Shown here piece after piece: positions 4,346-48,504 of a DNA stretch of 64,000 nt. Numbering within the stretch: the first letter of the stretch is position 1; every line of letters begins with the position of its first letter. Under the pieces are notes generated by a model. That model had not been told where the DNA came from. It saw nothing but the letters and a program-made list of their open reading frames with translations, and made no database searches. This DNA is from Phormidium tenue FACHB-1050 (GTDB taxonomy: Bacteria; Cyanobacteriota; Cyanobacteriia; Pseudanabaenales; Pseudanabaenaceae), in the NCBI RefSeq assembly GCF_014696925.1, contig NZ_JACJQY010000001.1:1-64000 (forward strand), written 5' to 3'. A program made the position numbers and the translations under genes.

Positions 4346-4390
4346 CAATATAAATGAAGGCTGCGCTTCGCGCAGCCTTCATTTATATTG
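4346..4390. terminator. bidirectional palindromic terminator
   Basis: Perfect 21-bp arms around a TTC loop, lying between two convergent stop codons (4345 and 4395). The core is CTGCGC-TTC-GCGCAG. Confidence 0.8.
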
Positions 4391-4394
4391 GTCA

Positions 4395-5735: not shown

Positions 5736-5777
5736 TCTATTTATTAAATCTGTATATAGCTGTCAGTAAAGTTAGGT

Positions 5778-5836
5778 CATAGAACCTAGAAAGTAAAGGC
5801 AGCGATATACGCCGCCTTTACTTTCTAGGTTCTATG
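5778..5836. repeat. long intergenic palindrome
   Basis: Perfect 23-bp arms around a 13-base loop, upstream of the permease and downstream of the pentapeptide gene's 3' side. Confidence 0.75.
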
Positions 5837-5840
5837 TATT

Positions 5841-5893
5841 CCAGAGAAATCTTAAAAAAGCTTGCTTCGCAAGCTTTTTTAAGATTTCTCTGG
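5841..5893. terminator. long palindrome, likely terminator of the pentapeptide gene
   Basis: Perfect 25-bp arms around TTC (core CTTGC-TTC-GCAAG) with T-rich stretches in the arms, about 40 bases beyond the pentapeptide gene stop. Confidence 0.7.
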
Positions 5894-5932
5894 GTTTCAA
5901 GAAAGCGCAAAACACTGCACTTTCTGGTTATG

Positions 5933-7129
5933 CTACAAGAAAGTTGCGATGACTTGAGGAGACACGGTTACAAAAGAATTATTTTGTAACAGATCCATTA
6001 ATGATTGACTTGGTAAATTAATCGCCTCTAATAAACGTTCACTAAAAGCAAGATTATTTTTAGCTTGATAGCGAATTTCTAATTTGAGGATGGTTAGGCG
6101 ATCGCTTTCCGATGCATCAACATAGCGTTGTAAATATTGCTCAGAAAGCTGTTCAAAAATTTGATGTAATTCTTCAAAGAGAATATGTTCTTGTAAAACC
6201 ACAGAACCATGCTTCTCTAATTCTGAACCTTGATTGACTTTGCTCACTAATTTAACAAAATCACCTTGAGCAAATTTCGCCTTAGGATTAAATGGACGGC
6301 GATCGCTATATTTTCTGAGAATGTAATCAGGCAAGCTTCTCAGGAGATGCTTTAAATAGATAGAATCACAGATCACATCATCCAACTTGGTATCGCCATC
6401 AATAATCCATTCCTCAATACATGCCCCCGTGAGATTTGCGGAACTAAAGTCAGTTCCTAAAGCTAGCGATCGGAAGAGATCAGCACCCTCAAGATTTGCC
6501 TTAGAGAGATTCGCCTTACTGAGATTTACGGCAAATAATTTTGCCTGCTGCAAATTCGCACCACTAAGATTTGCTTCAAAAAGATTTGCAAAATCCAGAT
6601 TTGCTTCACTGAGATTCGCACCACTGAGATTTGCTTCTTTGAGATTGGTTTGGTTGGCATTCACAAAAGGAATGGCGTTTCCTGACAAGATCGCCTGAAT
6701 ATTTTTTGCTTTGACAAATTCTGGTATACCGAGGCTGAGATTAGCTTTGTGTAAATTAGCATTGCTTAAATTGGCATTACTCAGATCCGCCTCACAAAGA
6801 AGTACATCAGTCAAATCGGCATTCTGGAGCGTTGCATTTTGAAGTTCAGCACCACTCAAGGATGCACCGCTCAGATTCGCTGCATTGAGATTTGCACCGC
6901 TCAACTTTGTGCCAAATAAAGTTGCTTCAGTGAGATTAGCATTGCTGAGATTGACTTCACTGAGGTTAGAGCCACTGAGATTAGCTTTACGCAGATTAGC
7001 TCCACTGAGATCCGCTTTCTCTAAATTAGCTCCAGCCGCACTAAATCTTTGTCCTTTCTCGCCATGACTCTCTAACCATAGTTGATGCTTGGCTAAATTC
7101 TCTTTCAAAGATGCTCTAAAAATTAACAT
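5933..7129 (-). CDS. pentapeptide-repeat protein
   Basis: A 398-residue protein. Residues about 33-230 are tandem A(D/N)LxX pentapeptides (for example ANLEKADLSGANLRKANLSGSNLS), which fold as a right-handed quadrilateral beta-helix. One break occurs near residues 130-160. The C-terminal 160 residues are helical and without recognised motifs. There is no signal peptide, so a soluble scaffolding or signalling role is likely; the exact function is unknown. GAGG seven bases before the ATG supports the start. The DNA itself looks repetitive because of the codons, not because of a mobile repeat. Confidence 0.85.
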   Translation of the reverse strand: MLIFRASLKENLAKHQLWLESHGEKGQRFSAAGANLEKADLSGANLRKANLSGSNLSEVNLSNANLTEATLFGTKLSGANLNAANLSGASLSGAELQNATLQNADLTDVLLCEADLSNANLSNANLHKANLSLGIPEFVKAKNIQAILSGNAIPFVNANQTNLKEANLSGANLSEANLDFANLFEANLSGANLQQAKLFAVNLSKANLSKANLEGADLFRSLALGTDFSSANLTGACIEEWIIDGDTKLDDVICDSIYLKHLLRSLPDYILRKYSDRRPFNPKAKFAQGDFVKLVSKVNQGSELEKHGSVVLQEHILFEELHQIFEQLSEQYLQRYVDASESDRLTILKLEIRYQAKNNLAFSERLLEAINLPSQSLMDLLQNNSFVTVSPQVIATFL

Positions 7130-7145
7130 AGATAAGCCTCTAATA

Positions 7146-7176
7146 ATTAGGAGCGGCGCAAAGCACCGCTCCTAAT
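7146..7176. terminator. palindrome at the 3' side of the helix-hairpin-helix gene
   Basis: Imperfect GGAGCGGCGC-AAA-GCACCGCTCC hairpin between two minus-strand genes; terminator for the gene ending at 7192. Confidence 0.6.
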
Positions 7177-7191
7177 CTATTTAAGTAAGTT

Positions 7192-7902
7192 TTAAGTGAG
7201 TTGGCGATATGCACTAAAGGGAATGCCAGTACGCTTTTTGACATCCATAATCGATTTGAATTCACCTCGTCGTTGTCGCTCTTGGGCGATCGCGATCGCT
7301 ACGTTGGGTTCTATCCCAATCGCTATCAAATCATCCGCAGTCATGGAGTTAACTCGCTTCCATGAATAACTTGTCTCTTGGCGGTAGTCATAGCCAAAGG
7401 TTACCATTGGCGCGATTTTTTGCAGAGTTGAGTTAGGGATTTCGAGAATGTCGTGGAGTTCTTCGAGACTAGTGAAGATATGCCCTTCTGCCCTTAATGA
7501 GTCAATATCATTGGCGTAAACGATCGGTAATCCTAAAACGTTAACTAAGTCATTCTTAGAGCAGCCATTAAACTCAATTTTGGGACGGGTAGCAGCGATC
7601 GCCTTAAATAGTTTTTCATCTTCAGGTAATGCTAAATGTTTTGGATAAGTCTTGGTTAAGTATTCACGTTTGAGCGCAAAGGCTGTCGCAATTTGAGCAA
7701 ACCAAACAATTGTCGCAAAGCCAGAAAGATATGGGGATGAGTAGAAAATAATTCCAGCCGTGACGAAACATGCACCGATCCCAATCCAAATATTAGAGCC
7801 AGACTTTACGCCAGCGTAGGCGATCGCGCCACCACCCAATGCTGGTACAAAAGACCACCAAACCCAAGATGGTGTTTGATCAAACCATGAAGGTTGAGAC
7901 AT
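7192..7902 (-). CDS. membrane protein with C-terminal helix-hairpin-helix domain
   Basis: A 236-residue protein. Residues about 15-90 hold three hydrophobic segments. The C-terminal 70 residues resemble ComEA/HhH motifs: VNSMTADDLIAIGIEPNVAIAIAQERQRRGEFKSIMDVKKRTGIP. A preceding segment (IEFNGCSKNDLVNVLGLPIVYANDI) looks like a second, weaker HhH unit. HhH domains usually bind DNA, but this family in cyanobacteria is uncharacterised. It precedes two other small membrane proteins on the same strand. Confidence 0.75.
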   Translation of the reverse strand: MSQPSWFDQTPSWVWWSFVPALGGGAIAYAGVKSGSNIWIGIGACFVTAGIIFYSSPYLSGFATIVWFAQIATAFALKREYLTKTYPKHLALPEDEKLFKAIAATRPKIEFNGCSKNDLVNVLGLPIVYANDIDSLRAEGHIFTSLEELHDILEIPNSTLQKIAPMVTFGYDYRQETSYSWKRVNSMTADDLIAIGIEPNVAIAIAQERQRRGEFKSIMDVKKRTGIPFSAYRQLT

Positions 7903-7942
7903 AGCAATTAAAGTGATTACTGTTTATGTATTGACTAGCTCT

Positions 7943-8003: not shown

Positions 8004-8339
8004 CTAAATATTCTTAAGTAGCTTTTTTCGTTTTTCTTCGTACTCTTCAGCCGTGATTATACCGTCATCATAAAGTTTTTTCAGATCCCCAAGGGCTGAA
8101 GTCGAATCTTTGACGGATGCTGTAGCTGTATTTGCCCCACCGTTAAATCTACGGTTAAATTCAGCATCAGCCATTAACAACAGCATAATAAACTCAATAA
8201 AAGCAGCAAGAGAAGGGATGCCTGTCCAGCAAAACAGTAGGTAAACGATTCCCCAACCAGATTGCCCTAGATAAAATTTGTGCGCTCCAAATGCTCCTAG
8301 AAAGAAACACCAAAGAATTGCATTAGTTCTGGTCTTCAT
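8004..8339 (-). CDS. TM2-SHOCT domain protein
   Basis: A 111-residue protein. The N-terminal part is a TM2 domain with two membrane helices (ILWCFFLGAFGAHKFYLGQSGWG, then the IPSLAAFIEFIML hairpin). The C-terminal 30 residues are a SHOCT motif (LGDLKKLYDDGIITAEEYEEKRKKLL), a short helical oligomerisation unit. A strong AGAGGGAG ribosome site lies upstream of the ATG. The function is unknown; TM2 proteins occur widely in bacterial membranes. Confidence 0.85.
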   Translation of the reverse strand: MKTRTNAILWCFFLGAFGAHKFYLGQSGWGIVYLLFCWTGIPSLAAFIEFIMLLLMADAEFNRRFNGGANTATASVKDSTSALGDLKKLYDDGIITAEEYEEKRKKLLKNI

Positions 8340-8382
8340 TACTATCTCCCTCTTAAAACTTGGTTAATGTATAACTACAGGC

Positions 8383-8595
8383 TTATCTTACAGGCTTGGA
8401 AATCTTCTTAGCTAGTAAATATACTATGAGGATTCCCAATTTTGCCTCTAGTAATACTATGGAAATTTGCAGATAAGGATGCATATCGGGATTGGTGTTA
8501 AGGACAAACGCAGCTAGCCCGACGAGAGCCAAGGGTAGAAATCTCAAGTTTTTGACTAAGGGTTTCACGCTCAAATGTTTAAAATCAGATGCCAT
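8383..8595 (-). CDS. small two-helix membrane protein
   Basis: A 70-residue hydrophobic protein with two membrane segments (FLPLALVGLAAFVLNT and ISIVLLEAKLGILIVYLLA). It has a basic N-terminus and no recognised family. It lies between the TM2-SHOCT and Uma2 genes on the same strand. Confidence 0.6.
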   Translation of the reverse strand: MASDFKHLSVKPLVKNLRFLPLALVGLAAFVLNTNPDMHPYLQISIVLLEAKLGILIVYLLAKKISKPVR

Positions 8596-8637
8596 AACTT
8601 TTTCTCTGTAAGAGCGATCTCTAAAATAATGCCCTAT

Positions 8638-9210
8638 TTACATTGAAAACTCAATGTTTCGATAGATTTCTGCGATCGCTAATTCAGTATTTAGGGACTC
8701 TAACAAAATCGACTGATCTAAACTATCAAAATCGCTGTATGTCCAGACTTGTGCTTGCTTACTATAGCGTTCCACAAAAATTTTGTTTTGGCGAATTAAG
8801 AGATATTCACAGAAACTGGGAATAGACCGATACATCCGAAACTTATCTGTGCGATCGTATTCCTCCGTCGATGGCGAAAGCACTTCTACAATTAGAACAG
8901 GATTTAAAACTTCATCCTCGCGATCACCATTAAATTGTAAAGCCCCATCAAAAACCATCGCATCAGGATATACGCCACGCCGATAATCAGGAATCCACAG
9001 CCGTAAATCATTGTTAATTGCTTCAAAGTTCGTGTCTCGCAGCAAAAATTTGAGGAGAGCAAAAACATTTCCACCAATACGGCTATGTTTAACAGTTCCA
9101 CCAGTCATTGCAATAATTTCTCCATCGTGGTATTCACATTTTTCTTCAGCGGTATCGGCGATCGCGCGATATTCATCGAGACTGTAATGGCGCTGAATGG
9201 TGGCAATCAT
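8638..9210 (-). CDS. Uma2 family endonuclease
   Basis: A PD-(D/E)xK-fold restriction endonuclease-like protein of the Uma2 (DUF820) family, very expanded in cyanobacteria. Visible signatures are YSLDEYRAIADTAEEKCEYHDGEI, then YPDAMVFDG (catalytic Asp), PVLIVEVLSPST (catalytic Glu) and the DKFRMYRSIPSFCEYLLI helix. I chose the ATG at 9210 because MIATIQRHYSLDEY matches the usual N-terminus, giving 190 residues. In-frame starts at 9234 and 9261 also exist and none has a clear ribosome site. The biological role of the family is unsettled. Confidence 0.82.
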   Translation of the reverse strand: MIATIQRHYSLDEYRAIADTAEEKCEYHDGEIIAMTGGTVKHSRIGGNVFALLKFLLRDTNFEAINNDLRLWIPDYRRGVYPDAMVFDGALQFNGDREDEVLNPVLIVEVLSPSTEEYDRTDKFRMYRSIPSFCEYLLIRQNKIFVERYSKQAQVWTYSDFDSLDQSILLESLNTELAIAEIYRNIEFSM

Positions 9211-9263
9211 GGAGTTGTAACTGAAAGACAACATTGATATTCTAGCGTCATCTCTGAACATGA

Positions 9264-9334
9264 ATTAAAAAAGCAAACCCCGTAAGGGTTTTAAAAACAA
9301 AATGGCATAGCCATTTTGTTTTTTTTGCATAACT
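9264..9334. repeat. partial copy of the composite TGGCGTAGCCA repeat
   Basis: CCCCGTAAGGGTTTTAAAAA is followed by an AAAACAAAATGGC-ATA-GCCATTTTGTTTT hairpin. These are the same two inner modules found at 58258-58366 and 61822-61927, here without the outer hairpin. Confidence 0.65.
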
Positions 9335-9404
9335 TGCCTTATTTTTACTTGGCTGCAAGTAGCTATAGAATAGGAAATAGCTGAATATTTTGTAGGAGTT
9401 GGTT

Positions 9405-10682
9405 TTGATTTCTTCAGCAGGACTTTCTGATAGTTTGGATTCTGACACTTTGGAGCGCGATCGCGAAGAAGACCTATTAGCGCATCGATCGCATTTTCCT
9501 GCTTTAGGAGTTGAAAATCGTACTTACTTTAACTATGGCGGACAGGGGGTTATGTGTGGGGCAGCCCTAGATGCGATCAACAAAAACTTTCGTCATATCG
9601 AGTCACTGGGTAGCTTTTCTAATGCGGCTGGGGATTGGATGGTATCTGAATATAATGCTACAAAAAACGCGATCGCCCAAGAATTTCAAGTCAGCCCCAC
9701 CACGATTACCCTCACCGAAAATACAACTATTGGCTGCAATATTGCTCTTTGGGCGGTGGATTGGCAGCAAGGCGATCACTTATTGCTCTCAGACTGCGAA
9801 CACCCTGGAATTATTGCGGCGGCTATCCAAATTCAGAAACGCTTTGGTATCGAAATTGACTATTTCCCCTTGACTAATACTCGCAATGCTAGCGCTGAAG
9901 GGAAAGATAGTGAAACAGTCGTGGAATTATTAGTTCAGCATTTGCAACCCCAAACGCGGATGGTGATGCTCAGTCATATTTGCTGGAATACAGGACAAGT
10001 TTTGCCATTAAAGGCGATCACTAAGGCTTGCCATGCTCAAAATGTGTTGGTTGCCGTTGATGCCGCGCAGTCAGTGGGTGTATTGCCCTTAAATCTGGCG
10101 GATATTGCGGCGGATTTTTATGCTTTTACTACCCATAAATGGTGGTGTGCGCCCCTAGGTTTGGGTGCTTTGTATATTCGCCCAGAGGTTTTTGAGGTGA
10201 TCGAACCAGTATTTGTGGGTTGGCGCGGACTCACAGGCAAGCTTCCTATTCCTCAGTGGCGACAAGATGGGGCAAAGTTTGAGGTGGCTAGCTCGACCTA
10301 TGCACTCTATGAGTCAATGCGAATTGCGATTGTCCATGCAAATGGTTGGGGAACACAACTGCAACGCTATCAGCGCATTTGTCAACTGAGTAAAATTGTA
10401 TGGGAACGACTGAATGCTTTGCCCCATATTGATTGTATAAGGCAACTACCTCCAGAGTCGGGACTCATTTCCTTTAAAGTTAATCAGGAATTAATCCCAA
10501 GCACATCTCAGAGTGCGATCGCCCAAAAGTCCCATGCATTAATTGCCAAACATTTGGAATCAGAACATCAAATCTTGATCCGTGCGCTTCCCGATCCTGA
10601 TTGTTTAAGGGCTTCAGTTCATTACTTGACTTCTATTGCTGATATAGAACGTTTGATTTCAGTCTTTGCAGCTATTGATTAA
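9405..10682 (+). CDS. C-DES-type cystine/cysteine C-S lyase (class V aminotransferase fold)
   Basis: A PLP-dependent fold-type I enzyme of about 425 residues. It matches what I remember of the Synechocystis cystine lyase C-DES: TYFNYGGQG near the N-terminus, LTENTTIGCNIALW, DCEHPGIIAAAIQI, SHICWNTGQVLPL, and the PLP lysine in YAFTTHKWW. C-DES breaks cystine to cysteine persulfide, pyruvate and ammonia and can supply sulfur for iron-sulfur clusters. The start is TTG at 9405, six bases after AGGAG; the TTG at 9399 abuts the ribosome site. A conventional cysteine desulfurase is the alternative, but the N-terminal motif favours C-DES. Confidence 0.8.
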   Translation: MISSAGLSDSLDSDTLERDREEDLLAHRSHFPALGVENRTYFNYGGQGVMCGAALDAINKNFRHIESLGSFSNAAGDWMVSEYNATKNAIAQEFQVSPTTITLTENTTIGCNIALWAVDWQQGDHLLLSDCEHPGIIAAAIQIQKRFGIEIDYFPLTNTRNASAEGKDSETVVELLVQHLQPQTRMVMLSHICWNTGQVLPLKAITKACHAQNVLVAVDAAQSVGVLPLNLADIAADFYAFTTHKWWCAPLGLGALYIRPEVFEVIEPVFVGWRGLTGKLPIPQWRQDGAKFEVASSTYALYESMRIAIVHANGWGTQLQRYQRICQLSKIVWERLNALPHIDCIRQLPPESGLISFKVNQELIPSTSQSAIAQKSHALIAKHLESEHQILIRALPDPDCLRASVHYLTSIADIERLISVFAAID

Positions 10683-36421: not shown

Positions 36422-36754
36422 ATGACCGCAGCACCAACCTTAGCAAAACAATATATCGAACAACGCGATCGAGGATACTGGATTGAAGGAACCCGTATTT
36501 CTCTTGATTCCGTTGTTTATGCCTTTTTGAATGGTAAATCACCTGAAAGCATTGCCCAAGACTTTCCATTACTCTCACTAGAACAGGTTTATGGAGCGAT
36601 CGCCTTTTATCTTGGAAGCCGCGAATTAATTGACGCATATCTCAAGGAAGGTGAAGAAGAATTTGAGAAACTTCAAAACTCCTGTAGACAAAAGAATCCA
36701 CTTCTATATCAGAAGTTAACAACTGCTCAAACCCAGAAGCTAATCAAATCATGA
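36422..36754 (+). CDS. DUF433 domain antitoxin-like protein
   Basis: A 110-residue protein. IEQRDRGYWIEGTRISLDSVVYAFLNGKSPESIAQDFPLLSLEQVYGAIAFYL is a DUF433 helix-turn-helix domain. DUF433 proteins are typically encoded directly before DUF5615 PIN-like proteins and are taken to be antitoxins. The stop overlaps the start of the next gene as ATGA (36751-36754), so translation is coupled. Confidence 0.85.
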   Translation: MTAAPTLAKQYIEQRDRGYWIEGTRISLDSVVYAFLNGKSPESIAQDFPLLSLEQVYGAIAFYLGSRELIDAYLKEGEEEFEKLQNSCRQKNPLLYQKLTTAQTQKLIKS

Positions 36755-37104
36755 CGGCAGTTCACTTTCAAGCAGATGCTGACCTTAATCAAGCAATTGT
36801 TACTGGTGCGTTACGCAGACAGCCAAATCTAAGTTTTCAATCAGCTTATACAGCAAGGCTGGAAGGCAAGAAAGACCCAGAAGTGTTAGCAATAGCAGCA
36901 CAAGATGGGAGAGTACTTGTAACCCATGATCGGAAAACGATGCCTGCTGAATTTGGAAAATTTATACTTACAAAAAACAGTTCGGGAGTTTTGATTCTCT
37001 CCCAGAAATTGTCAGTTAGTGAAGCAATTGATGCAATCATCCTCATTTGGGAAGCCTCTACTGCTGAAGAATGGGTTAATCAAATAATGTCTATCCCATT
37101 CTGA
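36751..37104 (+). CDS. DUF5615 PIN-like toxin candidate
   Basis: A 117-residue PIN-like protein. FQADADLN supplies the first acidic residues, and DPEVLAIAAQDGRVLVTHDRKTMP is the characteristic second acidic motif (D...TxD). The Mut7-C/DUF5615 fold is a PIN relative, so RNA cleavage is expected. Pairs with the DUF433 gene it overlaps. Confidence 0.82.
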   Translation: MTAVHFQADADLNQAIVTGALRRQPNLSFQSAYTARLEGKKDPEVLAIAAQDGRVLVTHDRKTMPAEFGKFILTKNSSGVLILSQKLSVSEAIDAIILIWEASTAEEWVNQIMSIPF

Positions 37105-40126: not shown

Positions 40127-40200
40127 GGCGAGTGTAGCCAAGTGGTTAAGGCAGTGGTTTGTGGTACCACCATTCGTGGGTTCAATTCCCATCATTCGCC
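40127..40200 (+). tRNA. trnH: tRNA-His (GTG)
   Basis: Acceptor GCGAGTG/CATTCGC with G-1 at 40127 opposite C73 at 40200, the histidine identity pair. D arm GCC-AAGTGGTTAA-GGC, anticodon arm GTGGT-TTGTGGT-ACCAC with anticodon GTG, T arm GTGGG-TTCAATT-CCCAT. CCA is not encoded. Confidence 0.95.
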
Positions 40201-40220
40201 CTCAAAATTCAAAATCACAG

Positions 40221-40345: not shown

Positions 40346-42604
40346 ATGGGTAAGACAGTTGTGAGGTTCTGTGCGATCGCACTGACCACCCTCTTAATCG
40401 TGGTATCGCTCGGCGGCTTATATCCGCAAGGATTGAGGGCTGAAGGAAATACGATCTCGATCGCAGTAGCTGCATCTCTGAGCGGAGATGCAGCCAGTGG
40501 CGGTCAAGAAATCGTCGATAGCATCAAGCTATATATTGATGCGACCAATCGAGACGGGGGGATCAATGGTCGTCAACTTAAATTAAATGTTTTTGATGAT
40601 AAGGGCAATGCGGATGGGGCAGCTCAAGTTGCTAACGACATTGCTAAAAGTGATGCACTAGTGGTGTTAGGACATCGCTCTTCCGATGCCTCGATCGCTG
40701 CTGGTAACATTTACCAAGATAAAAAATTACCAGCAATTACGGGTACGGCGAATAATCCTAAAGTTACCAGCGATCGCCCGTACTATTTTCGGATTATTTA
40801 TACCAATCCCGATCTAGCTAAAACCTTGTCAATCTATGCACAGCAGGTACTTCAGTTCAAGACGGCTAGTGTAATTTATGACAAAGCTAGTAAAAATGAA
40901 CAGACTCAATCGGAAGTAATTAAGTCAGCCTTTGAAGCCAATGGTAATGGCATAATTCAAAAGACTTGGGCGATCGATTCTGATCCAGCTAATCGCAAAG
41001 CCTCAGTGCAGCAAATCGTCAATGAATTAGCTGCTGAGCCTGAAGCAGGAATTTTATTTTTAACCATGTCCAAGGAGGATGTTGCCGAAGACTTTTTGGT
41101 GGCGCTCAAGCAGAAAGGGCTAAAAAATCCTGTTTTAGGGGAGCAAGCATTGGGAAGGGAATCCTTTGCGAAGCGATTTGAGAAATATGATGAAGAGAAG
41201 AAAACGGCGGGATTTTTCACTGATGGCATGTATGTACCATTGCCGATCCTGTTTGATAGTGCAGGAGCCGATGCCCAAGACTTTCTAGCGGCGTATCAAA
41301 AAGCCTACAACAAGACTCCTTCCTATTTAGGAGCAAAGTTTTATGAGGCAGCGATCGCCGCAGTGGATGCAATTCGTAAGGCTAATCCTAAAGGCACAAA
41401 TGTAGAAGGCGATCGCGAACAGGTGCGTGATGCGCTCGCGAAACTAAATAATCGTAAGGTGGGCATCAGAGGCTTAACGGGGTTACTTTATTTCAACAGC
41501 GATCGCAATAGCGATCAGCCCGTTCGCCTTGCTCAATTCCAAAACCAAAAATTGATTTCTGCATCCCAACAATTTACACCGATCGCTAATCCTGAGCGCT
41601 TGAATTTACCAAAAGAAATCCAAGCTGGAAGCATTGTTCAATCGGGTGAACAATATTTTTGGCGGCAGCGTGTAGTTTATGCGGGAATGGATATCAATAA
41701 GCTGAATCGCATTGATAAGGCAACTTTTACCGCAGATTTTTATGTGTGGTTCCGCTATAACGGCAATGATGAACCTACAGAGATTCAGTTTCCTGATGCG
41801 GTCAGTAATAGTGTTAATCCCACTGCACCTGTATTTGATGGTAAAGCCCCAATCAAAGCCCAAGTTGTCAATGGCTTAAACTATCGGCTCTATCGGGTAC
41901 GTGGTGAATTTCGGAATGCCTTTGATTTCCGCGATTATCCCTTTGATTCGCAAAGATTAAACTTGCGTTTTGATAATCCTAATCTATCGACTGAGAGATT
42001 GATCTATGCGATCGATAAAGTTGGATTAAGATTACCAAGACCTGAAGCCGAGGAACGCAAACCATTCCAAGGGCTTCAGCTTTGGAATTTTAAAAATATT
42101 ACCTATTTCCAAGACTCATCACGCAGTACTTCCACTCAAGGCGATCCTGATTTGTTCCAGTCCAATGCTCAGGTGGAATACCCTGGGTTAAGCATTCGCA
42201 TGACTTTTCAACGCAAAACCTTAGTATTTCTATCTAAGAATGTGTTGCCGTTGATTTTGCTTTCGCTTTTAACCTATTGCTGCCTGTTCTTCCCCTATTC
42301 GATGTTTGTGCCACGCACGATGGCTCCTGCCTCGGCATTACTATCAGGAATTGTGTTGTTGCTTTCCTTTAACAATCAACTTCCTGAAGTTGGCTACACC
42401 GTAGCGATGGAATATGTGTTTTATGTCTATTTCTGTTTATGTTTACTACCGATTCTGGTCACAGTAATCGGCACAAAACTGGAAAAAGATGGGCATAAAA
42501 AAGCGTTTAAATACTTAAATATCGCTTCTTGGATTGTCTATCCATTGATTTTGATCATCACTATTTCGACTTTTGCGATCGCCTATAGCGATCGCTTAGT
42601 TTAA
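40346..42604 (+). CDS. periplasmic-binding-protein fused to a pentameric ligand-gated ion channel
   Basis: A 752-residue fusion. A signal peptide (1-32, ending GLRAEG) leads to a type I periplasmic binding domain like Leu/Ile/Val-binding proteins (about 35-400: ISIAVAASLSGDAASGGQEIVDSIKLYIDATNRDGGINGRQLKL). Then comes a Cys-loop-receptor beta-sandwich (about 430-615) with the Pro-loop FDFRDYPFDSQRLNL (about 530) but without the loop cysteines. Four membrane helices (about 622-750) follow, the second reading APASALLSGIVLLLSF. Relatives of the channel half are GLIC and ELIC. Amino acid-like ligands are the likely trigger, an inference from the fused domain. First gene of a three-gene operon. 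Confidence 0.9.
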   Translation: MGKTVVRFCAIALTTLLIVVSLGGLYPQGLRAEGNTISIAVAASLSGDAASGGQEIVDSIKLYIDATNRDGGINGRQLKLNVFDDKGNADGAAQVANDIAKSDALVVLGHRSSDASIAAGNIYQDKKLPAITGTANNPKVTSDRPYYFRIIYTNPDLAKTLSIYAQQVLQFKTASVIYDKASKNEQTQSEVIKSAFEANGNGIIQKTWAIDSDPANRKASVQQIVNELAAEPEAGILFLTMSKEDVAEDFLVALKQKGLKNPVLGEQALGRESFAKRFEKYDEEKKTAGFFTDGMYVPLPILFDSAGADAQDFLAAYQKAYNKTPSYLGAKFYEAAIAAVDAIRKANPKGTNVEGDREQVRDALAKLNNRKVGIRGLTGLLYFNSDRNSDQPVRLAQFQNQKLISASQQFTPIANPERLNLPKEIQAGSIVQSGEQYFWRQRVVYAGMDINKLNRIDKATFTADFYVWFRYNGNDEPTEIQFPDAVSNSVNPTAPVFDGKAPIKAQVVNGLNYRLYRVRGEFRNAFDFRDYPFDSQRLNLRFDNPNLSTERLIYAIDKVGLRLPRPEAEERKPFQGLQLWNFKNITYFQDSSRSTSTQGDPDLFQSNAQVEYPGLSIRMTFQRKTLVFLSKNVLPLILLSLLTYCCLFFPYSMFVPRTMAPASALLSGIVLLLSFNNQLPEVGYTVAMEYVFYVYFCLCLLPILVTVIGTKLEKDGHKKAFKYLNIASWIVYPLILIITISTFAIAYSDRLV

Positions 42605-42611
42605 ACAATAG

Positions 42612-42634
42612 ATGCGGCGCTTTGCACCGCATCT
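42612..42634. terminator. GCGGCGC-TTT-GCACCGC hairpin
   Basis: Short imperfect hairpin eight bases after the fusion-channel stop; may be a partial terminator within the operon. Confidence 0.5.
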
Positions 42635-42654
42635 AGCATCTATCAACGATGTTT

Positions 42655-42755
42655 TATAGCAAAACTCAAAATGGCGTAGCCATTTTTGAAAAACCTTACT
42701 GGGTTTGGTTTTTAATTCTCAAAAGTGTTGTCACACTTTCGTGAATTGCTATTAG
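42655..42755 (-). repeat. composite repeat, copy D
   Basis: CAAAATGGC-GTA-GCCATTTTTG, an AAACCTTACTGGGTTTGG module and a TTCTCAAAAGTG...CACTTTCGTGAATT hairpin, in the order of copy C. Confidence 0.7.
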
Positions 42756-42819
42756 AAATGTTCAAAAATTACAACTAAAAAATGTAATCAGCTTTCTGTA
42801 GGTTAGCTGTAAGCAAACT

Positions 42820-43977
42820 ATGAATATTAAATGGAAGTCTCAATTATTGCTGTTTATGGTGGCTATCACCACTTCGATCGTGTCAGCGTATTCGGGGTTT
42901 GGGGCAAGCAATGCCATGATCGAAAGTGCAAAGAAACGTGAACTAAATGTTACAGCCACATTGATCCAAAGCAATATCAACGAGCAGATCAACAAAGCTG
43001 CCGCCCGTGCTTCAATGGTGTCCTCATTGCCCTCGATTAAACAGGCTTTTCGGGCAAAAGATCGCGATGCGATCGCCACACGTCTATTGCCTGCGATGAT
43101 TGTCCAACGCGACCAGTTTGGCGTGAGAGAAGGACAGTTTATTTTGCCTCCTGCGATCTCTTTTCTCCGCATCTATGCCCTTAAGGACGGACATGGTGAA
43201 GATTTGAGTGGATTTCGCCAAATGATTCTCATTGCCAATCGCACTGGAGAACCCCAACGCGGTATCGAAATCGGTCGGCGTGGACTCAGTATTCGCGCAG
43301 TCTATCCAGTCAAAGATGATGATGGACTGATTGGCTCCTTTGAGATCGGTATGAGTTTCTCCTCAATACTCGCGCAAACCAAGACAAATACTGGCTTCGA
43401 TTCGGGTGTATTCATCGATGATAAGTTGATGACTGATGTCGCTAAATTGATTCCTCGTCCCGACAACGAGCGCATCGTGGGCGGCTATCAAGCCGTTGAA
43501 GTTACTGATTGGGCGACACTTAAGCCGTTGCTATCTCCTGCGATGTTTGCTAAGGCTCGTGATGTTTCCCTTGACCTACTCACGGTCAATGGCATTGACT
43601 ACGGACTGGTATTAGTACCTGTACTTGACTACAAGGGCGAACGCATTGGTGCAGTGGTGGCAGTTCGAGACTTTAGCGAATTTCAGACTCAGCAGAGGTG
43701 GGCGCTCACAGGCACAGTTGCGATGGCGGGACTACAGATTGTGTTGCTGACAGGCGCATTGTTAATCGTAGTTAATGCTATGTTGCTTAAACCGTTTGAG
43801 GCGATCGCCCTTGCTAGTGACCAGCTTGCCGATGGCAACCCAGCCACCGACCTAGACGACTTAGCAAACCGCAAAGATGAAATTGGCGACATGGCGCGAT
43901 CGCTACAAACATTGGCGAATAAGGGTACTGCTAAAGGTGACACAAAGATTACTGCCAAGGAGTCCCAAAATGCGTAG
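42820..43977 (+). CDS. Cache-HAMP membrane sensor without output domain
   Basis: A 385-residue protein. A first membrane helix (about 8-28), an extracytoplasmic region of about 260 residues of Cache type (SIRAVYPVKDDDGLIGSFEIGMSFSSIL and GLVLVPVLDYKGERIGAVVAVRDFSEFQ), a second helix (about 296-325) and a HAMP linker (about 326-372: MLLKPFEAIALASDQLADGNP ... NRKDEIGDMARSLQTL) are visible. It ends just after HAMP, with no chemotaxis, kinase or cyclase domain. Encoded between two ligand-gated channel genes, it probably senses a solute for them; this is inference. The 3' end overlaps the next gene by 8 bases. Confidence 0.85.
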   Translation: MNIKWKSQLLLFMVAITTSIVSAYSGFGASNAMIESAKKRELNVTATLIQSNINEQINKAAARASMVSSLPSIKQAFRAKDRDAIATRLLPAMIVQRDQFGVREGQFILPPAISFLRIYALKDGHGEDLSGFRQMILIANRTGEPQRGIEIGRRGLSIRAVYPVKDDDGLIGSFEIGMSFSSILAQTKTNTGFDSGVFIDDKLMTDVAKLIPRPDNERIVGGYQAVEVTDWATLKPLLSPAMFAKARDVSLDLLTVNGIDYGLVLVPVLDYKGERIGAVVAVRDFSEFQTQQRWALTGTVAMAGLQIVLLTGALLIVVNAMLLKPFEAIALASDQLADGNPATDLDDLANRKDEIGDMARSLQTLANKGTAKGDTKITAKESQNA

Positions 43978-45247
43978 ACGTAGACCTTGGAAAATTGCAG
44001 TACCCCACATCCTCATCGCCTTTCTACTATGCTTTTTCATTTCCATTATGGGTATGGGTTCAAGAACAGCGACAGCCACTTTTGCCCAAACTGAGCCTGA
44101 GACAGCAGTTAATGCGCCAAGTGCTTCAGCCTCTGCATCTAAGATGTCCAGCATTGCCAATAAAACTGTTGCTGATGCAATCAAGCCCCCAGCCAGCAAG
44201 GCGATCGCAAAGGATAGCGTCAAAAAAAGCACTCCCACAGACGCAAACCCTCTGGAGAATAATCTTGTACCTTTCCCATCCAATGTAGCTTTACCAATGC
44301 GGGTTGGTGTCGCTTTATTCGTGAACAGCATCAACAAAATCAACGAAGCTACTAATACCTTCGAGAGTCAGTTTGATATTAGATATGTTTGGAACGATCC
44401 TCGCTTAGCCTTCGATACTGGCGAAATGGGAACGAATCGTTTAGAGTTTGGGCAAGAAGCGGCAGTGGCAAAGTTAGCAACGATCTGGAATCCTCAGATC
44501 AAAATCACCAACATCATCGAGAAGGATGCTCAGATTTCACCAGGATTATTTATCCACTACGATGGCAAAGTAGAACTGATTCAACGTGTCAAGGCTACCT
44601 TCGAGAGCAAATTAAATTTAGATGCCTTCCCCTTTGACAACCAGTCACTGCTAGTAGCAATGCTTTCGTCGAAGTACAACTCCAACCAGATTGCTCTGTC
44701 TCAGGATCAGGACGATCTCAACGCATCAGGACTTAATCCAGAACTCAAGGTTAATGGATGGAATCCGCAGGGTATTACCTTTAAAACATCGCAGCTCCGC
44801 GCTTGGAATGGTGCATTTCTCCGCCAGATTGAGGCTCGCGTAGGGATGAAGCGCATACCAAATGCGATTCTAGGCTCGATCTTCACGCCTTTCCTGTTAA
44901 CTTTGATTGTGCCGACGATCTTTACGTTCTTTGCAAATGTAGACTTAGCACCCCGTTTGGTCGCTTGGAGTGGCTCGATCTTAGCTTTGGTGGCACTTAC
45001 CTTCACGTTTTCGGTGCGATACCCTTGGCTCGGTAGCAACAGCCTTGTGTCACAGATATTTACCGCAGGTCATGCCTATCAGATGCTCTCAGTGATTCTG
45101 TCGATAACCCTGTTGAACCCAGATGTAGCTAAGCGGATGGATCGGTTCATTGTTGCCGAACTGGTCAGCTATCTGCGATGGCTTGTGCCTGTCGGCTTTT
45201 TAGGTGTCTTGGTTACTAAGTCTTTGCTCACAGCTTTTGACTGGTAA
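43970..45247 (+). CDS. pentameric ligand-gated ion channel subunit
   Basis: A 425-residue Cys-loop-receptor relative. A basic N-terminus and hydrophobic segment (about 12-32) form a signal or anchor, followed by an 80-residue Ala/Ser/Lys linker. The ligand-binding beta-sandwich (about 105-295) has FPFDNQSLLVAML (about 220) and WNDPRLAF. Four membrane helices begin at NAILGSIFTPFLLTLIVP. No Cys pair flanks the Pro-loop. The ATG at 43970 follows AAGGAG by seven bases; the longer frame from 43877 is an artefact overlapping the sensor gene. It may form hetero-oligomers with the upstream fusion channel. Confidence 0.87.
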   Translation: MRRRRPWKIAVPHILIAFLLCFFISIMGMGSRTATATFAQTEPETAVNAPSASASASKMSSIANKTVADAIKPPASKAIAKDSVKKSTPTDANPLENNLVPFPSNVALPMRVGVALFVNSINKINEATNTFESQFDIRYVWNDPRLAFDTGEMGTNRLEFGQEAAVAKLATIWNPQIKITNIIEKDAQISPGLFIHYDGKVELIQRVKATFESKLNLDAFPFDNQSLLVAMLSSKYNSNQIALSQDQDDLNASGLNPELKVNGWNPQGITFKTSQLRAWNGAFLRQIEARVGMKRIPNAILGSIFTPFLLTLIVPTIFTFFANVDLAPRLVAWSGSILALVALTFTFSVRYPWLGSNSLVSQIFTAGHAYQMLSVILSITLLNPDVAKRMDRFIVAELVSYLRWLVPVGFLGVLVTKSLLTAFDW

Positions 45248-45250
45248 TGC

Positions 45251-45319
45251 GATCGCGCCTTGGCGCGATCACCTAGTTTAAATATCGGTAATAGAAGCGG
45301 TACTCCAATCCGCTTCTAT
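45251..45319. terminator. two hairpins between convergent genes
   Basis: GATCGCGCC-TT-GGCGCGATC (45251-45270) and ATAGAAGCGG...CCGCTTCTAT (45291-45319), between the channel operon and the restriction-methylase gene. Confidence 0.7.
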
Positions 45320-48300
45320 TGGTTAGAATCTTTTTCTTGTGCAGCGATCGCTTGATTAAGATGTAGTAGTTTTTCTAGTAGGTCGTCACTGTCGCTAAAG
45401 CCGTAAAGTTGCATTACGAGTTTGTCGAGCTTGGCATGGAGTTTATAAAGTTGGCTAGCGGGTTCGTGAAAGTATTCGTTATAAAGTTTGGTGATGCCCC
45501 ATTGTTTGCTCTCCATTTGCTCAGTGCGATATTGATGTAGCTCTTGCATGGCGGCGCGGATTTGTTGGACAAGACCCTCACCCCCAGCCCCTTTCTCTAG
45601 GGGAGAGGGGAGCAAAGAGGATATTTGAGTAAGGGTTTCTTCTGGATGGTCGAGAATAGCTTGATTGGAGAAACGAATTACGTTAAATCCGTGGGATTTC
45701 ATCCATTGATCGCGATCGCTATCACGTTCTTGCTGATTTTGATGGATGTCGCCATCGAGTTCGATGACTAGTTTGGCTTCATGGCAGTAGAAATCTGCGA
45801 TGTATTGCCCAATATTGTGCTGGCGGCGAAATTTTGCTTCAAATAAACGGCGATCGCGTAAACATTCCCACAATACTTTTTCCGCAGGTGTCTGCTTTTG
45901 GCGAAGTTCCCGCGCTCTCTGCAAAAGAACTTGAGGAATTTGTCGTTCTCTACCTGCAAGTTTGTTGCCCTCACCCCTAGAAATCTGGGAGCCTTCACTT
46001 GCAAGTTTATTGCCCTCACCCCTGCCCCTCTCCCTAGGGGAGAGGGGTTCTGAGTCTTGCTCCCCCTCTCCCCTAGGGAGAGGGGGCTGGGGGGTGAGGG
46101 CAGGAAATGGGAATGTCTCGAAACAAGTGTTTGGAGTATAACGGGTATCTCCTTTTAGAGTAGAGCTTTGAGCTGCAACCCAAGTTCTATGGACATTTGA
46201 TGTTAGGACTCCAAGAATATAAAAATCTTCAGAAGCTATAACGACATTTGAACAATTAGGTAACCAAGAACTTTCCGCAGGCGTAAAGATAAACCATTTG
46301 GAGTGTCTTGGAATAGTGAAATACAAAGAAAGTGGCGCAATGAAACGCCTCATTTTTTGACAATTCTCTCCATATTTCCACCAATTAAGTTTTCTTGTTT
46401 CACGCCTATTAATATCTCTTTCTGGCTTAACCGTTGTCTTAACGTGCTTAAAGGGTGAAGTATAAGCGCTAGCATCTTCAAAGCTCAAATCATTAAAATC
46501 AATAATCCATTGTTCTGGTTTACCATGAGGGTTCTGAGTTAAATCTCTAGCCACTGAAAAAGGTCGAAGCACTTTTTCATTTAACGGATCATCATTAATC
46601 CACTGAATAACTTTTTCTTTGGAAATTACGAAGCCATTTCCATTCAGTTGACATCCTATAAATGAGAGATTGAAATTCGCTTTAAGCTTCACAGCTTGTG
46701 AAACATCTATTGTGGCTTGAAGTGATGAATTAATACTGGGAGTTTGTTGATTGTCTAGATAGCAAATTTCTGGCTTCTTATAATTCCAGTTAACAATACT
46801 GACATGAACTTTTGCTTCTCCAGACCATTTCTGAGTAGAGATTGCATCATAGATATATCCATCATTATGAATAATATAGTCTAGAGATACAGACCTACTT
46901 TTTCCCTGACTAATTGAATTAGTTGCAACTAATCCAGCTCTACCATTTTTATTAAGATTCTCATGAGCTAACCTAAACCAATAGCTTGCAAAATCAACCT
47001 GAGCCTGAATATCACCAAATTTTGCAAAGACTCTTTCTGCATACTCATTACTTAATTCGGTGCGAATACGATAACCGCCCAAAAATGGGGGATTGCCAAT
47101 AATCGCATCAGCCTCAAACCAATCAGAAAATAAAGCATCCTGACAAACAATATTTTGATCTAACGTATCCAAAGGTAAAGCAGGTTCAGATAGACCATGC
47201 TTATCGATCGCCACTTTACGAGCGATCATCAAAGTCACCCTAGCCAACTCAACCGCAAACGGATTTATATCCATTCCAAAAAACTGATTAGGCGTAACCA
47301 AACCCATTTGCACTTGCTGCGATTTTTGTCTAGAAGCCAACTTAGCAAGCAACATCACCTCGATCCGCTTTAGCTCTTGGTAAGCAAGATATAGAAAATT
47401 TCCAGACCCACAGGCAGGATCTAAAACTCGATAAGCCTGTAACTCCAACTGCAAAGCATTGAGATCAGCGATCGTATTCGCAGCCTCGATCTTCTCCTCC
47501 CAATACCTTGTGATTGTCGGTACAACAATCTTCATGATATCCACCTCAGACGTGAAATGCATCCCCCTTGCATGACGCTCCTTAGAGTCTGAAGTCGCTT
47601 CAAAAATACTGCCAAAAATAGCAGGTCGGATTTTGCCCCAATTTTCCCTAGCCGCCGTATCTAAAATCTCTAACTCCTTCCTCTCAAGCTCGATCGCATG
47701 AATCTCCGTGAATAAGCCCCCATTAAAATAGTCAACACCCCTATAACGTCCTGCGGGTGTAATTCCCTTACGATTCATCTCCTGAAATAAACCACCAATC
47801 AGATCGTAAGTACTTGCCCCATTAAGGCAATCTTGCACACAAGCAACAAACAGATCATCAGGCAATAGTCCCCGATCCTCTGCAAACATCGCTAAAACGC
47901 ATTGCAAAATAAACTTTTGAGCAATTAGCTCTGTAAACCCATCCTTAGCGGCTCTAGCCTTAAGTAACCTATAAAGCTCACCTAACCGCTTAGCCGTGTT
48001 GATCGTCACCTCTACTTGGTTATTTCTAAATACAGGTGTCGTATTAACTGCAATTTCCATGAAGCGAAATGCACTGGCTCTATTTGGTAGATCAGCGATC
48101 GCAACAGTATCTACAGGTGTATCGACTTGCAGATTAAAGTCATAAATCCAAAACTCATCAAAATTGCAAAGGACTACATATCTGGGGCGATCGGGTACAA
48201 GATAAGTCCAATATTGAAAAGCTTGCGAATAATGCTTATTAAGATCCTCACCCCGCTTTTTCATCTCAATCAAAACGCCGCCCTTACCATTACTCTCAGG

Positions 48301-48504
48301 ACGTTTCCAGACTAAATCCGCAAAGCCCGTCTTACCCTTAGCACTACCCTTTTTAACCCTTTGCTCATACACCGCCCCCGCCTCAATCGCGCCCTTATGG
48401 TGAAAAGCTTGAAAAAAGCGGTCTAAAAATATCTGTGATTCTGATTTTTCATCACCCTTTAAAGTGGAATGGAAGTTAACAAAATCTTGCAAAGGTTCAG
48501 ACAT
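45316..48504 (-). CDS. MmeI-like restriction-modification protein with embedded DUF559 nuclease
   Basis: A 1062-residue protein. An N-terminal PD-(D/E)xK nuclease (TGFADLVWKRP ... GGVLIEMKKRG, about 60-82) and helical linker precede an adenine-N6 methyltransferase (motif I DPACGSGNFLY at about 360, motif IV GNPPF at about 473). A target recognition region follows (about 590-800), the layout of type IIL single-chain enzymes. At residue about 803 the frame enters repeat-encoded LTPQPPLPRGEGE, then a DUF559 nuclease (about 855-960: TPAEKVLWECLRDRRL, FRRQHNIGQYIADFYCHEAKLVIELDGDIH), then repeat-encoded LPSPLEKGAGGEG. The usual C-terminal helices (about 975-1062) come last. The frame is intact through both repeats. 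Confidence 0.88.
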   Translation of the reverse strand: MSEPLQDFVNFHSTLKGDEKSESQIFLDRFFQAFHHKGAIEAGAVYEQRVKKGSAKGKTGFADLVWKRPESNGKGGVLIEMKKRGEDLNKHYSQAFQYWTYLVPDRPRYVVLCNFDEFWIYDFNLQVDTPVDTVAIADLPNRASAFRFMEIAVNTTPVFRNNQVEVTINTAKRLGELYRLLKARAAKDGFTELIAQKFILQCVLAMFAEDRGLLPDDLFVACVQDCLNGASTYDLIGGLFQEMNRKGITPAGRYRGVDYFNGGLFTEIHAIELERKELEILDTAARENWGKIRPAIFGSIFEATSDSKERHARGMHFTSEVDIMKIVVPTITRYWEEKIEAANTIADLNALQLELQAYRVLDPACGSGNFLYLAYQELKRIEVMLLAKLASRQKSQQVQMGLVTPNQFFGMDINPFAVELARVTLMIARKVAIDKHGLSEPALPLDTLDQNIVCQDALFSDWFEADAIIGNPPFLGGYRIRTELSNEYAERVFAKFGDIQAQVDFASYWFRLAHENLNKNGRAGLVATNSISQGKSRSVSLDYIIHNDGYIYDAISTQKWSGEAKVHVSIVNWNYKKPEICYLDNQQTPSINSSLQATIDVSQAVKLKANFNLSFIGCQLNGNGFVISKEKVIQWINDDPLNEKVLRPFSVARDLTQNPHGKPEQWIIDFNDLSFEDASAYTSPFKHVKTTVKPERDINRRETRKLNWWKYGENCQKMRRFIAPLSLYFTIPRHSKWFIFTPAESSWLPNCSNVVIASEDFYILGVLTSNVHRTWVAAQSSTLKGDTRYTPNTCFETFPFPALTPQPPLPRGEGEQDSEPLSPRERGRGEGNKLASEGSQISRGEGNKLAGRERQIPQVLLQRARELRQKQTPAEKVLWECLRDRRLFEAKFRRQHNIGQYIADFYCHEAKLVIELDGDIHQNQQERDSDRDQWMKSHGFNVIRFSNQAILDHPEETLTQISSLLPSPLEKGAGGEGLVQQIRAAMQELHQYRTEQMESKQWGITKLYNEYFHEPASQLYKLHAKLDKLVMQLYGFSDSDDLLEKLLHLNQAIAAQEKDSNQ
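45574..45610. repeat. GC-rich REP palindrome inside the methylase gene, 3' side
   Basis: ACCCTCACCCCCAGCCCC then CTAGGGGAGAGGGG, related to 46013-46100 and to the intergenic element at 32224-32312; encodes SPLEKGAGGEG. Confidence 0.8.
46013..46100. repeat. GC-rich REP palindrome pair inside the methylase gene, 5' side
   Basis: CCCTCACCCCTGCCCCTCTC and its facing partner ending GGCTGGGGGGTGAGGG; encodes the PQPPLPRGEGE...SPRERGRGEG linker that starts the DUF559 insert. Confidence 0.85.

Follow-up and report, generated by a model that had tools for sequence, protein, structure and literature searches.

Constant pairing of a chemoreceptor-like Cache sensor gene with a pentameric ligand-gated channel gene in Cyanobacteriota and Pseudomonadota

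The pairing of a gene for a Cache sensor (B) with a gene for a pentameric ligand-gated ion channel (pLGIC; C) was constant across two phyla, Cyanobacteriota and Pseudomonadota. Comparison of the loci indicates that this B–C pair, not the A–B–C trio seen in the window (the whole stretch of 64,000 nucleotides analyzed, from Phormidium tenue FACHB-1050, family Pseudanabaenaceae; Table 1), is the conserved unit. On balance, we think that the locus probably holds two separate chemical-sensing channels side by side, in which B would be the front half of a chemoreceptor and an auxiliary to a homopentameric C. The original prediction had described A as a periplasmic-binding protein (PBP) fused to a channel, B as a Cache-HAMP protein without an output domain, and C as a second channel; it was accurate in frames, place, and strand, as well as in the overlap of B and C. 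Purifying selection acts on each of A, B, and C (dN/dS 0.044–0.140, 16 gene pairs).

Table 1. Features of the locus, numbered from the first nucleotide of the window.
Feature	Position	Strand	Description
tRNA-His (GTG)	40128..40201	+	ARAGORN; last gene before A; neighbor, outside the system
Gene A	40346..42604	+	752 aa; signal peptide, PBP-I, pLGIC-type domain, four membrane helices
Domains of A			PBP domain, residues 36–399; ligand-binding-type domain, ~430–620; membrane helices, ~625–750
Stem-loop just 3' of the A stop	42609..42635	+	Terminator-like shape, without a clear T run on the + strand
Gene B	42820..43977	+	385 aa; membrane helix, dCache_3, second membrane helix, HAMP, end
Overlap of B end and C start	43970..43977	+	8 bases, from the sequence
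Gene C	43970..45247	+	425 aa; N-terminal helix, linker, pLGIC ligand-binding domain, four membrane helices
Motifs of C			Low-complexity linker, residues ~25–98; Pro-loop, FPFD

The window belongs to the genus Pseudanabaena. Among 26 Pseudanabaena genomes, B and C each occurred in 14, and these were the same 14. B adjoined C at all 17 Pseudanabaena places, 12 of them orthologous (including two remnants) and five paralogous, and outside the genus it directly adjoined the channel at 12 of 12 C-clade loci. When 398 Pseudomonadota genomes were searched later and separately, B lay beside both C-clade members (2/2), whose C-clade status rests on an enlarged tree that placed them inside the B-paired clade (18 rows, SH-aLRT 100). 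At none of a further 44 pLGIC loci (30 unfused and 14 PBP-fused) was the B profile matched; the listed pLGIC places inspected numbered 21 of 35 in one search and 18 of 21 in the later search of Pseudomonadota. Distances among B proteins correlated with those among C proteins (r = 0.911, 15 pairs), a value reached in none of 2000 permutations. The two genes also overlapped elsewhere, by 8 bases in locus L112 and by 4 bases in most Rhizobiales loci. Among the pairs are those of Pseudanabaena biceps and of Rhizobium sp. FKY42, the latter with the shortest C. The functional link of sensor with channel that had been inferred for the window is supported, and B and C co-occurred wherever they were examined; adjacency and translational overlap mean co-expression, not contact.

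In B, the double Cache domain was matched by dCache_3 (PF14827; E = 5.5e-26, 92.1 bits against a cut-off of 25.7) and is flanked by membrane helices at about residues 9 and 296–333. A HAMP domain follows at the limit of detection (E = 1.8e-05, 25.4 bits against a cut-off of 25; Pfam), and the Pfam scan of B found no MCP signaling domain, or anything else, C-terminal of it. All 17 B rows end within 330–401 residues, and B lacks the C-terminal domain expected of a methyl-accepting chemotaxis protein. In nine B proteins scanned, dCache_3 was present in every one, whereas HAMP exceeded the Pfam cut-off in only one. The HAMP-less proteins of four loci (L184, L186, L187, and L188) end 31–35 residues past the start of TM2; these loci form one subclade and hence count as one loss event. 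The sensor and the membrane layout are common to B and dCache_3-HAMP-MCPsignal chemoreceptors, which carry the MCP signaling domain that B lacks. Alignment of 17 B proteins gave 20 columns with at least 88% conservation, and three dCache_3 chemoreceptors are identical to B in 16 of these. The shared columns lie mostly in the distal sensor module; conserved residues of B include R117, R133, and E150. Three of the four long relatives scanned were dCache_3-MCP proteins, the fourth (L247) giving no MCP domain match, and the nearest output-bearing kin of B are mostly chemoreceptors. One B-like gene, on contig 379 of genome G078, lies at the contig end and has no visible partner.

C can be classed as a putative pLGIC of the Pro-loop/Cys-loop superfamily by its profile match, Pro-loop, and helices. 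Neur_chan_LBD (PF02931) matched it with E = 2.6e-21 (76.5 bits against a cut-off of 26), whereas a scan with PF02932 gave no match. The C family profile matched GLIC constructs in the PDB (best E = 3.7e-21), and the Pro-loop residues F220, P221, F222, and D223, together with a basic residue before M1, R295, were invariant in 15 rows. The AlphaFold model of C (eight rows, mean pLDDT 63) showed a beta-sandwich followed by four C-terminal membrane helices (298–321, 326–350, 359–382, and 392–423), and its best Foldseek match was GLIC (E = 1.9e-20, TM 0.43/0.56, rmsd ~8 Å); the low TM and large rmsd mean that the domain packing is wrong, and the model was taken for secondary structure and fold class only. 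C matches GLIC, the proton-gated channel of Gloeobacter, over both the ligand-binding and membrane domains. GLIC is known as a stand-alone channel, whereas C comes with a Cache protein beside it and carries a long linker.

One half of A is a type-I PBP (Leu/Ile/Val type), judged from a match over the whole domain to Peripla_BP_6 (E = 1.4e-35, profile positions 1–339 of 343; Pfam), and this half also matched PDB entry 3hut (1e-22). The channel half fell short of the Pfam cut-off for Neur_chan_memb (10.9 bits against 28.1), with no LBD match, but a profile of this half from 11 A orthologues matched pLGIC chains in the PDB (best E = 2.4e-7), and A grouped in the tree with PBP-pLGIC proteins from other genera. 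The AlphaFold model of A (pLDDT 37), built on six near-identical rows, was left unused. C and, probably, A are two different relatives of animal nerve-receptor channels in one cyanobacterium. A glutamate ring in M2 is a motif of cation channels; none was seen in M2 of A or C, where the alignment is uncertain. The PBP-fused type occurred at four cyanobacterial loci outside Pseudanabaena and at 10 Pseudomonadota loci. Such PBP-I fusions are known from Magnetospirillum and Bradyrhizobium (Tasneem et al. 2004/2005, PMC549065), and A has the same order of signal peptide, PBP-I, ligand-binding domain, and four membrane helices. Cyanobacterial pLGICs are described there as simple in architecture; A indicates that some are not.

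The three genes had been predicted to form one operon. This was not confirmed, as a 215-bp gap (~100–217 bp across Pseudanabaena loci) and the stem-loop (z = −4.37 against 200 dinucleotide shuffles) separate A from B. A hairpin 3' of A, with z of −2.6 or lower against mononucleotide shuffles, was found at 20 of the 21 Pseudanabaena loci folded, the exception being G019 (z = +0.5). We do not regard the hairpin as a proven terminator, because a T run occurs in few loci, G019 has no hairpin, and the pattern scan found terminators only slightly more often than expected by chance, and promoters no more often than that.

A, B, and C were contiguous in eight of the 26 Pseudanabaena genomes (B being interrupted by ~1 kb in one), and remnants of B and C adjoined an intact A in two more (G006 and G023). 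Outside Pseudanabaena, no A-type match was found in 10 of 11 B–C genomes, and the 11th had one weak match. Co-occurrence elsewhere, on which the prediction had staked itself, is therefore partly wanting for A with B–C, but B and C do co-occur. In Pseudanabaena, A was present in every one of the 14 C-bearing genomes (P = 0.012, kinship uncorrected), a hint of some tie between A and B–C. A recent insertion of B–C beside A is less likely than repeated loss, given the decaying copies and the starts of the flanks, the latter being used alone because repeats inflate the aligned lengths. The flank 3' of C in G000 and G020 begins 6 bases after A in G017; that 3' of C in G025 and of B–C in G016 begins 1–3 bases after A in G010, G014, and G015; and that 3' of B–C in G012 equals that 3' of C in G004. 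Within this one genus, the trio is an old neighborhood.

The age and contiguity of the trio, together with the presence of A wherever C occurs in the genus, would fit a single heteromeric solute-gated channel in which A and C are different subunits and B is the sensor, and tandem pairs of different pLGIC genes do exist elsewhere (L121, L125, and L227). However, this claim of the prediction found no direct support, and we consider it improbable. PBP-fused and B-paired channels formed separate clades (100/100 for both; in the enlarged tree, the B-paired rows had an SH-aLRT of 100 and the PBP-fused set, also enlarged, one of 90), each coherent even though long branches flagged in the trees make the place of both among other pLGICs unsure. 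A is intact in five genomes without any C or C2 (G003, G011, G017, G018, and G019), with dN/dS of 0.06–0.08 among four of them. Conversely, G012 and G016 have the pair apart from A, on different contigs, and the paralogous pair never adjoins A in Pseudanabaena; the absence of A-type matches from most B–C genomes of other genera and the hairpin between A and B also argue against a heteromer.

Alternatively, B and C may be co-expressed for the same response without contact, with B acting elsewhere, for example, in mixed dimers with chemoreceptors. B is descended from, or close to, dCache_3 chemoreceptors, which persist in several of the same genomes, and HAMP is kept in Pseudanabaena B. Nonetheless, we regard this as rather unlikely, since no other protein in Pseudanabaena reached E = 1e-20 against the B profile, which leaves B there without a close partner receptor, since HAMP is absent in one subclade, and since both phyla show the same constant pairing of B with a pLGIC. 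It is very improbable that B serves C assembly as a chaperone or anchor and has lost ligand sensing: its output is gone and its HAMP is degenerate, but its distal Cache module keeps the polar residues that it shares with working-type chemoreceptors, and the dN/dS of B is 0.06–0.09.

We therefore return to two devices side by side. A would be a self-contained homopentamer, the pore of which is gated through solute sensing by an amino-acid-type PBP-I atop each subunit. B and C would form one two-gene device: C as a homopentameric channel, and B as a periplasmic dCache_3 domain held between two membrane helices, no longer driving a cytoplasmic output. The lack of the usual output together with the pairing with a channel suggests that B works through C. 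We infer that B contacts C both within the membrane and in the periplasm, and that a small ligand in the Cache pocket of B may then open or close C, the direction of gating, the ligand, and the ion selectivity being equally conjectural. Symmetry counts against such a complex, as a Cache receptor is dimeric and the channel pentameric. A bolder version, which we offer tentatively, is a split chemoreceptor: B would be an obligate auxiliary subunit of C, turning binding of a Cache ligand into ion flux instead of kinase control, as a bacterial counterpart of the Cache-containing auxiliary subunits of animal channels. On the same tentative footing, this clade would span cyanobacteria and alphaproteobacteria, and Pseudanabaena would run B–C beside a second, PBP-gated channel, A.

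A pLGIC gene and a stand-alone Cache gene in a predicted operon have been reported from Rhodopseudomonas (PMC549065), and this putative pair is very probably of the same kind as B–C. That pair was reported from one bacterium, whereas B–C represents a clade with constant pairing over two phyla, to which the two helices around Cache, the degenerate or lost HAMP, and the kinship with chemoreceptors can be added. Our limited literature searches found no report of Cache-pLGIC pairing across a whole clade. Cache or MCP-N domains are also fused to pLGICs in Methanosarcina, Cytophaga, and Microbulbifer (PMC549065), and the N-terminal domain of DeCLIC, whose lobes are jelly-rolls, influences gating kinetics (PMC9897478). 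B–C resembles these systems in adding an extra periplasmic module to a pLGIC, but their module lies within the channel chain, whereas B is a separate membrane protein.

With the likely agonist sensor on a separate, conserved chemoreceptor-type subunit, the question of gating becomes testable: the ligand could be looked for on the soluble Cache domain, whose kin are ordinary chemoreceptors, and then applied to the channel with and without B. If B gates C, a bacterial pLGIC would have an auxiliary sensory subunit in B, and the pair would be a small system in which the control of a channel by an accessory Cache domain could be studied.

Genes A, B and C, three consecutive genes of the window, have the domain make-up given in the original prediction: a periplasmic-binding protein (PBP) fused to a channel (A), a Cache-HAMP protein without output domain (B), and a second channel (C) whose reading frame shares 8 bases with that of B. 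The channel half of A scores under the Pfam cut-offs, and a profile of 11 orthologues matched pentameric ligand-gated channel (pLGIC) chains in the PDB (best E 2.4e-7). The C family profile matched constructs of GLIC, the proton-gated pLGIC of Gloeobacter (3.7e-21), which was also the structure nearest to the predicted C model (1.9e-20; TM 0.43/0.56). Across 16 gene pairs that together sample A, B and C, dN/dS was 0.044–0.140. The observation was confirmed and its interpretation partly supported. Of the proposed three-gene operon, B and C, whose frames share 4 to 8 bp in most Pseudanabaena trios, are read as a probable single transcription unit; A probably forms its own unit, given an A–B gap of ~100 to 217 bp and a hairpin directly after A (z −2.6 or lower against mononucleotide shuffles in 20 of 21 Pseudanabaena loci folded; genome G019 had no such fold). 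Elsewhere in the window, an MmeI-type protein carries a DUF559 bordered by Pro/Gly/Glu-rich stretches, and a DUF433/DUF5615 gene pair is presumably toxin-antitoxin-like.

Positions of features in the window and at other pLGIC loci (L numbers, loci; G numbers, genomes; PBP-I/PBP-II, type-I/type-II PBP domain)
Feature	Position	Strand	Description
Gene A	40346-42604	+	752 residues: signal peptide, PBP-I domain (Peripla_BP_6, 1.4e-35), channel part
Hairpin	42609-42635		3′ of A stop; z −4.37
Gene B	42820-43977	+	385 residues: dCache_3 between two membrane helices, then HAMP at the C-terminal end
Gene C	43970-45247	+	425 residues: helix, low-complexity linker, pLGIC ligand-binding domain (2.6e-21), four helices
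Window, DUF433 + DUF5615	36422-37104	+	4-base overlap
Window, MmeI-type restriction-modification protein	45316-48504	−	DUF559 (residues 861-964) between target-recognition domain and C-terminus
L125 (G141 contig 91)	900-4463; 4550-8101	−	Tandem PBP-I-pLGIC proteins, ~1185 aa each, C-terminal SBP_bac_1
L123 (G197)	8301-9725	−	PBP-II gene adjoining pLGIC gene, same strand
L230 (G841)	3256-4917	−	As L123
L225 (G713)	5614-6498	−	As L123
L231	3967-5604	−	Two-helix protein directly downstream of PBP-pLGIC gene; sub-threshold MCPsignal
L233	7193-8737	+	As L231
L234	6502-8190	+	As L231
L227 (G744)	4415-5620; 5598-7925	−	Tandem, PBP-fused and plain pLGIC genes
L121 (G019)	5364-6395; 6470-7537	−	Tandem, two different plain pLGIC genes
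L117	5374-6258		Two-helix protein convergent to pLGIC, within ~50 bp
L118	6410-7303		As L117
L119	5369-6253		As L117

Contigs assigned by name to the genus include Pseudanabaena frigida, P. biceps PCC 7429, P. sp. UWO311, 'Roaring Creek', SR411 and two MAGs. We searched 26 Pseudanabaena genomes. A had a full open frame in 19, was split (G014), truncated at a contig end (G021) or fragmented (G005) in one genome each, and gave no match in G002, G009, G013 and G024. B and C were present in an identical set of 14. Conservation of the trio holds in part: orthologous B–C lies downstream of A in eight of the 26 (G000, the window genome, G001, G004, G007, G008, G020, G022, with a ~1 kb interruption in B, and G025), B–C remnants adjoin A in G006 and G023, and B–C and A are on different contigs in G012 and G016. 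A paralogous B–C pair (~40–43% identical) in G000, G010, G015, G022 and G025 adjoins A in none of them. B and C were together at 17 of 17 places, making A the separable member. The presence of A in 14 of 14 genomes with C, versus 21 of 26 overall (P 0.012, uncorrected for kinship), is a weak hint of dependence. A third, unfused pLGIC gene, 26–28% identical to the A channel half, was seen in G022 (L069, contig 1 near 1347235) and G004 (L070, contig 66 near 64897).

C in G000, C in G020 and A in G017 are followed by the same DNA; likewise, one downstream flank is common to C in G025, B–C in G016 and A in G010, G014 and G015, and another to C in G004 and B–C in G012. Given these flanks and two decaying B–C copies, the simplest history is that Pseudanabaena had the trio ancestrally, from which B–C would have been lost several times and moved away from A twice; the opposite course, repeated gain of B–C at one spot, is less likely.

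Outside the genus, the C profile matched 12 of 386 Cyanobacteriota genomes, 26 of 297 genomes of the Rhizobium sp. FKY42 order (21 of 35 listed places inspected) and 20 of 398 Pseudomonadota genomes (18 of 21). B directly adjoined C in 12 of 12 C-clade loci (L111–L113, L181–L189), in reversed order, C then B, at L113; the taxon of L112 and L113 is unsure because their assemblies carry 7 and 9% contamination. Two strong C relatives added from Pseudomonadota (G975, G735) had B directly upstream. In these loci, the overlap was mostly 4 bases wherever the start was readable. The B profile gave no match at 44 other inspected pLGIC loci, 30 unfused (L114–L121, L126–L131, L190–L200, L224, L225, L235–L237) and 14 PBP-fused (L122–L125, L226–L234, L238); contig ends truncate a few of the stretches. 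Some of these loci have other sensors nearby, and a neighbouring sensor is thus not in itself peculiar to the C clade.

In a tree built on 49 channel domains, one branch (100/100) set apart the 16 rows paired with B, and another (100/100) the 7 A-type rows. In a 60-row tree made by a quick method, G975 and G735 fell among the B-paired rows (18 rows, SH-aLRT 100) and 11 PBP-fused rows grouped together (support 90); long branches were flagged in both trees. With separate clades and a separable A, the suggested mixed A/C pentamer found no direct support; the constant pair is B–C, and A is read as an independent channel. The tandems at L227 and L121 are better heteromer candidates than A and C.

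Other loci offer further partners. Both L125 proteins run PBP-I, pLGIC, last membrane helix, SBP_bac_1 (PBP-II; 4.4e-32 and 1.1e-33), which fits the periplasmic C-terminus of pLGICs; we know of no described C-terminal fusion to a pLGIC. The separate PBP-II genes at L123, L230 and L225 are of the SBP_bac_1/8, SBP_bac_5 and Phosphonate-bd types, and, as L123 and L125 share a clade, the same partner is a gene of its own at L123 and part of the channel protein at L125. MCPsignal scores at L231, L233 and L234 (24.6–28.6 bits versus a cut-off of 34.6) are in line with the older idea of a chemotaxis role. Of the convergent proteins at three related cyanobacterial loci, the two that were scanned, at L117 and L118, are Tll0287-like.

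The component parts were already known: Tasneem et al. (PMC549065) describe bacterial pLGICs with PBP-I and Cache/MCP-N fusions, PBP-II genes as neighbours and, in Rhodopseudomonas, a separate Cache gene predicted to share the pLGIC operon; they propose bacterial pLGICs as chemotaxis receptors and homopentamers. The 2016 inventory (PMC4795631) omits flanking domains and urges work on them; fused N-terminal domains are the subject of the DeCLIC papers (PMC9897478, PMC12664993). We found no account of a clade-wide Cache–pLGIC pair in the largely open-access literature searched on Cache and pLGICs or on Pseudanabaena and ligand-gated channels.

For B, 25 places were listed by its profile in 27 genomes: 13 B adjoining C, 11 longer frames (639–960 aa) and one B-like place at a contig end (G078 contig 379). 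Three of the four longer relatives scanned are dCache_3-HAMP-MCPsignal chemoreceptors (the fourth shows dCache_3 only). Among 17 B proteins, 20 columns reach a conservation of at least 88%, and 16 of them are identical in these three chemoreceptors. HAMP exceeds its Pfam cut-off in one of nine scanned B proteins, and at four loci of one subclade B ends 31–35 residues after the TM2 start. Judging from these sequences, B has kept its sensor and not its output, its cytoplasmic end being eroded. Because B lacks an output domain, and one subclade a real cytoplasmic domain, its signal would have to exit via membrane or periplasm; as C is its sole constant partner, we propose for B the role of auxiliary sensory subunit to this channel. 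Contact, stoichiometry, ligand and sign of gating are inferred in this model, which builds on the observed gene identities, pairing, clade separation, output loss and conserved sensor. Sensing by B would thereby be passed to the channel C, while A would act as an independent PBP-gated channel.
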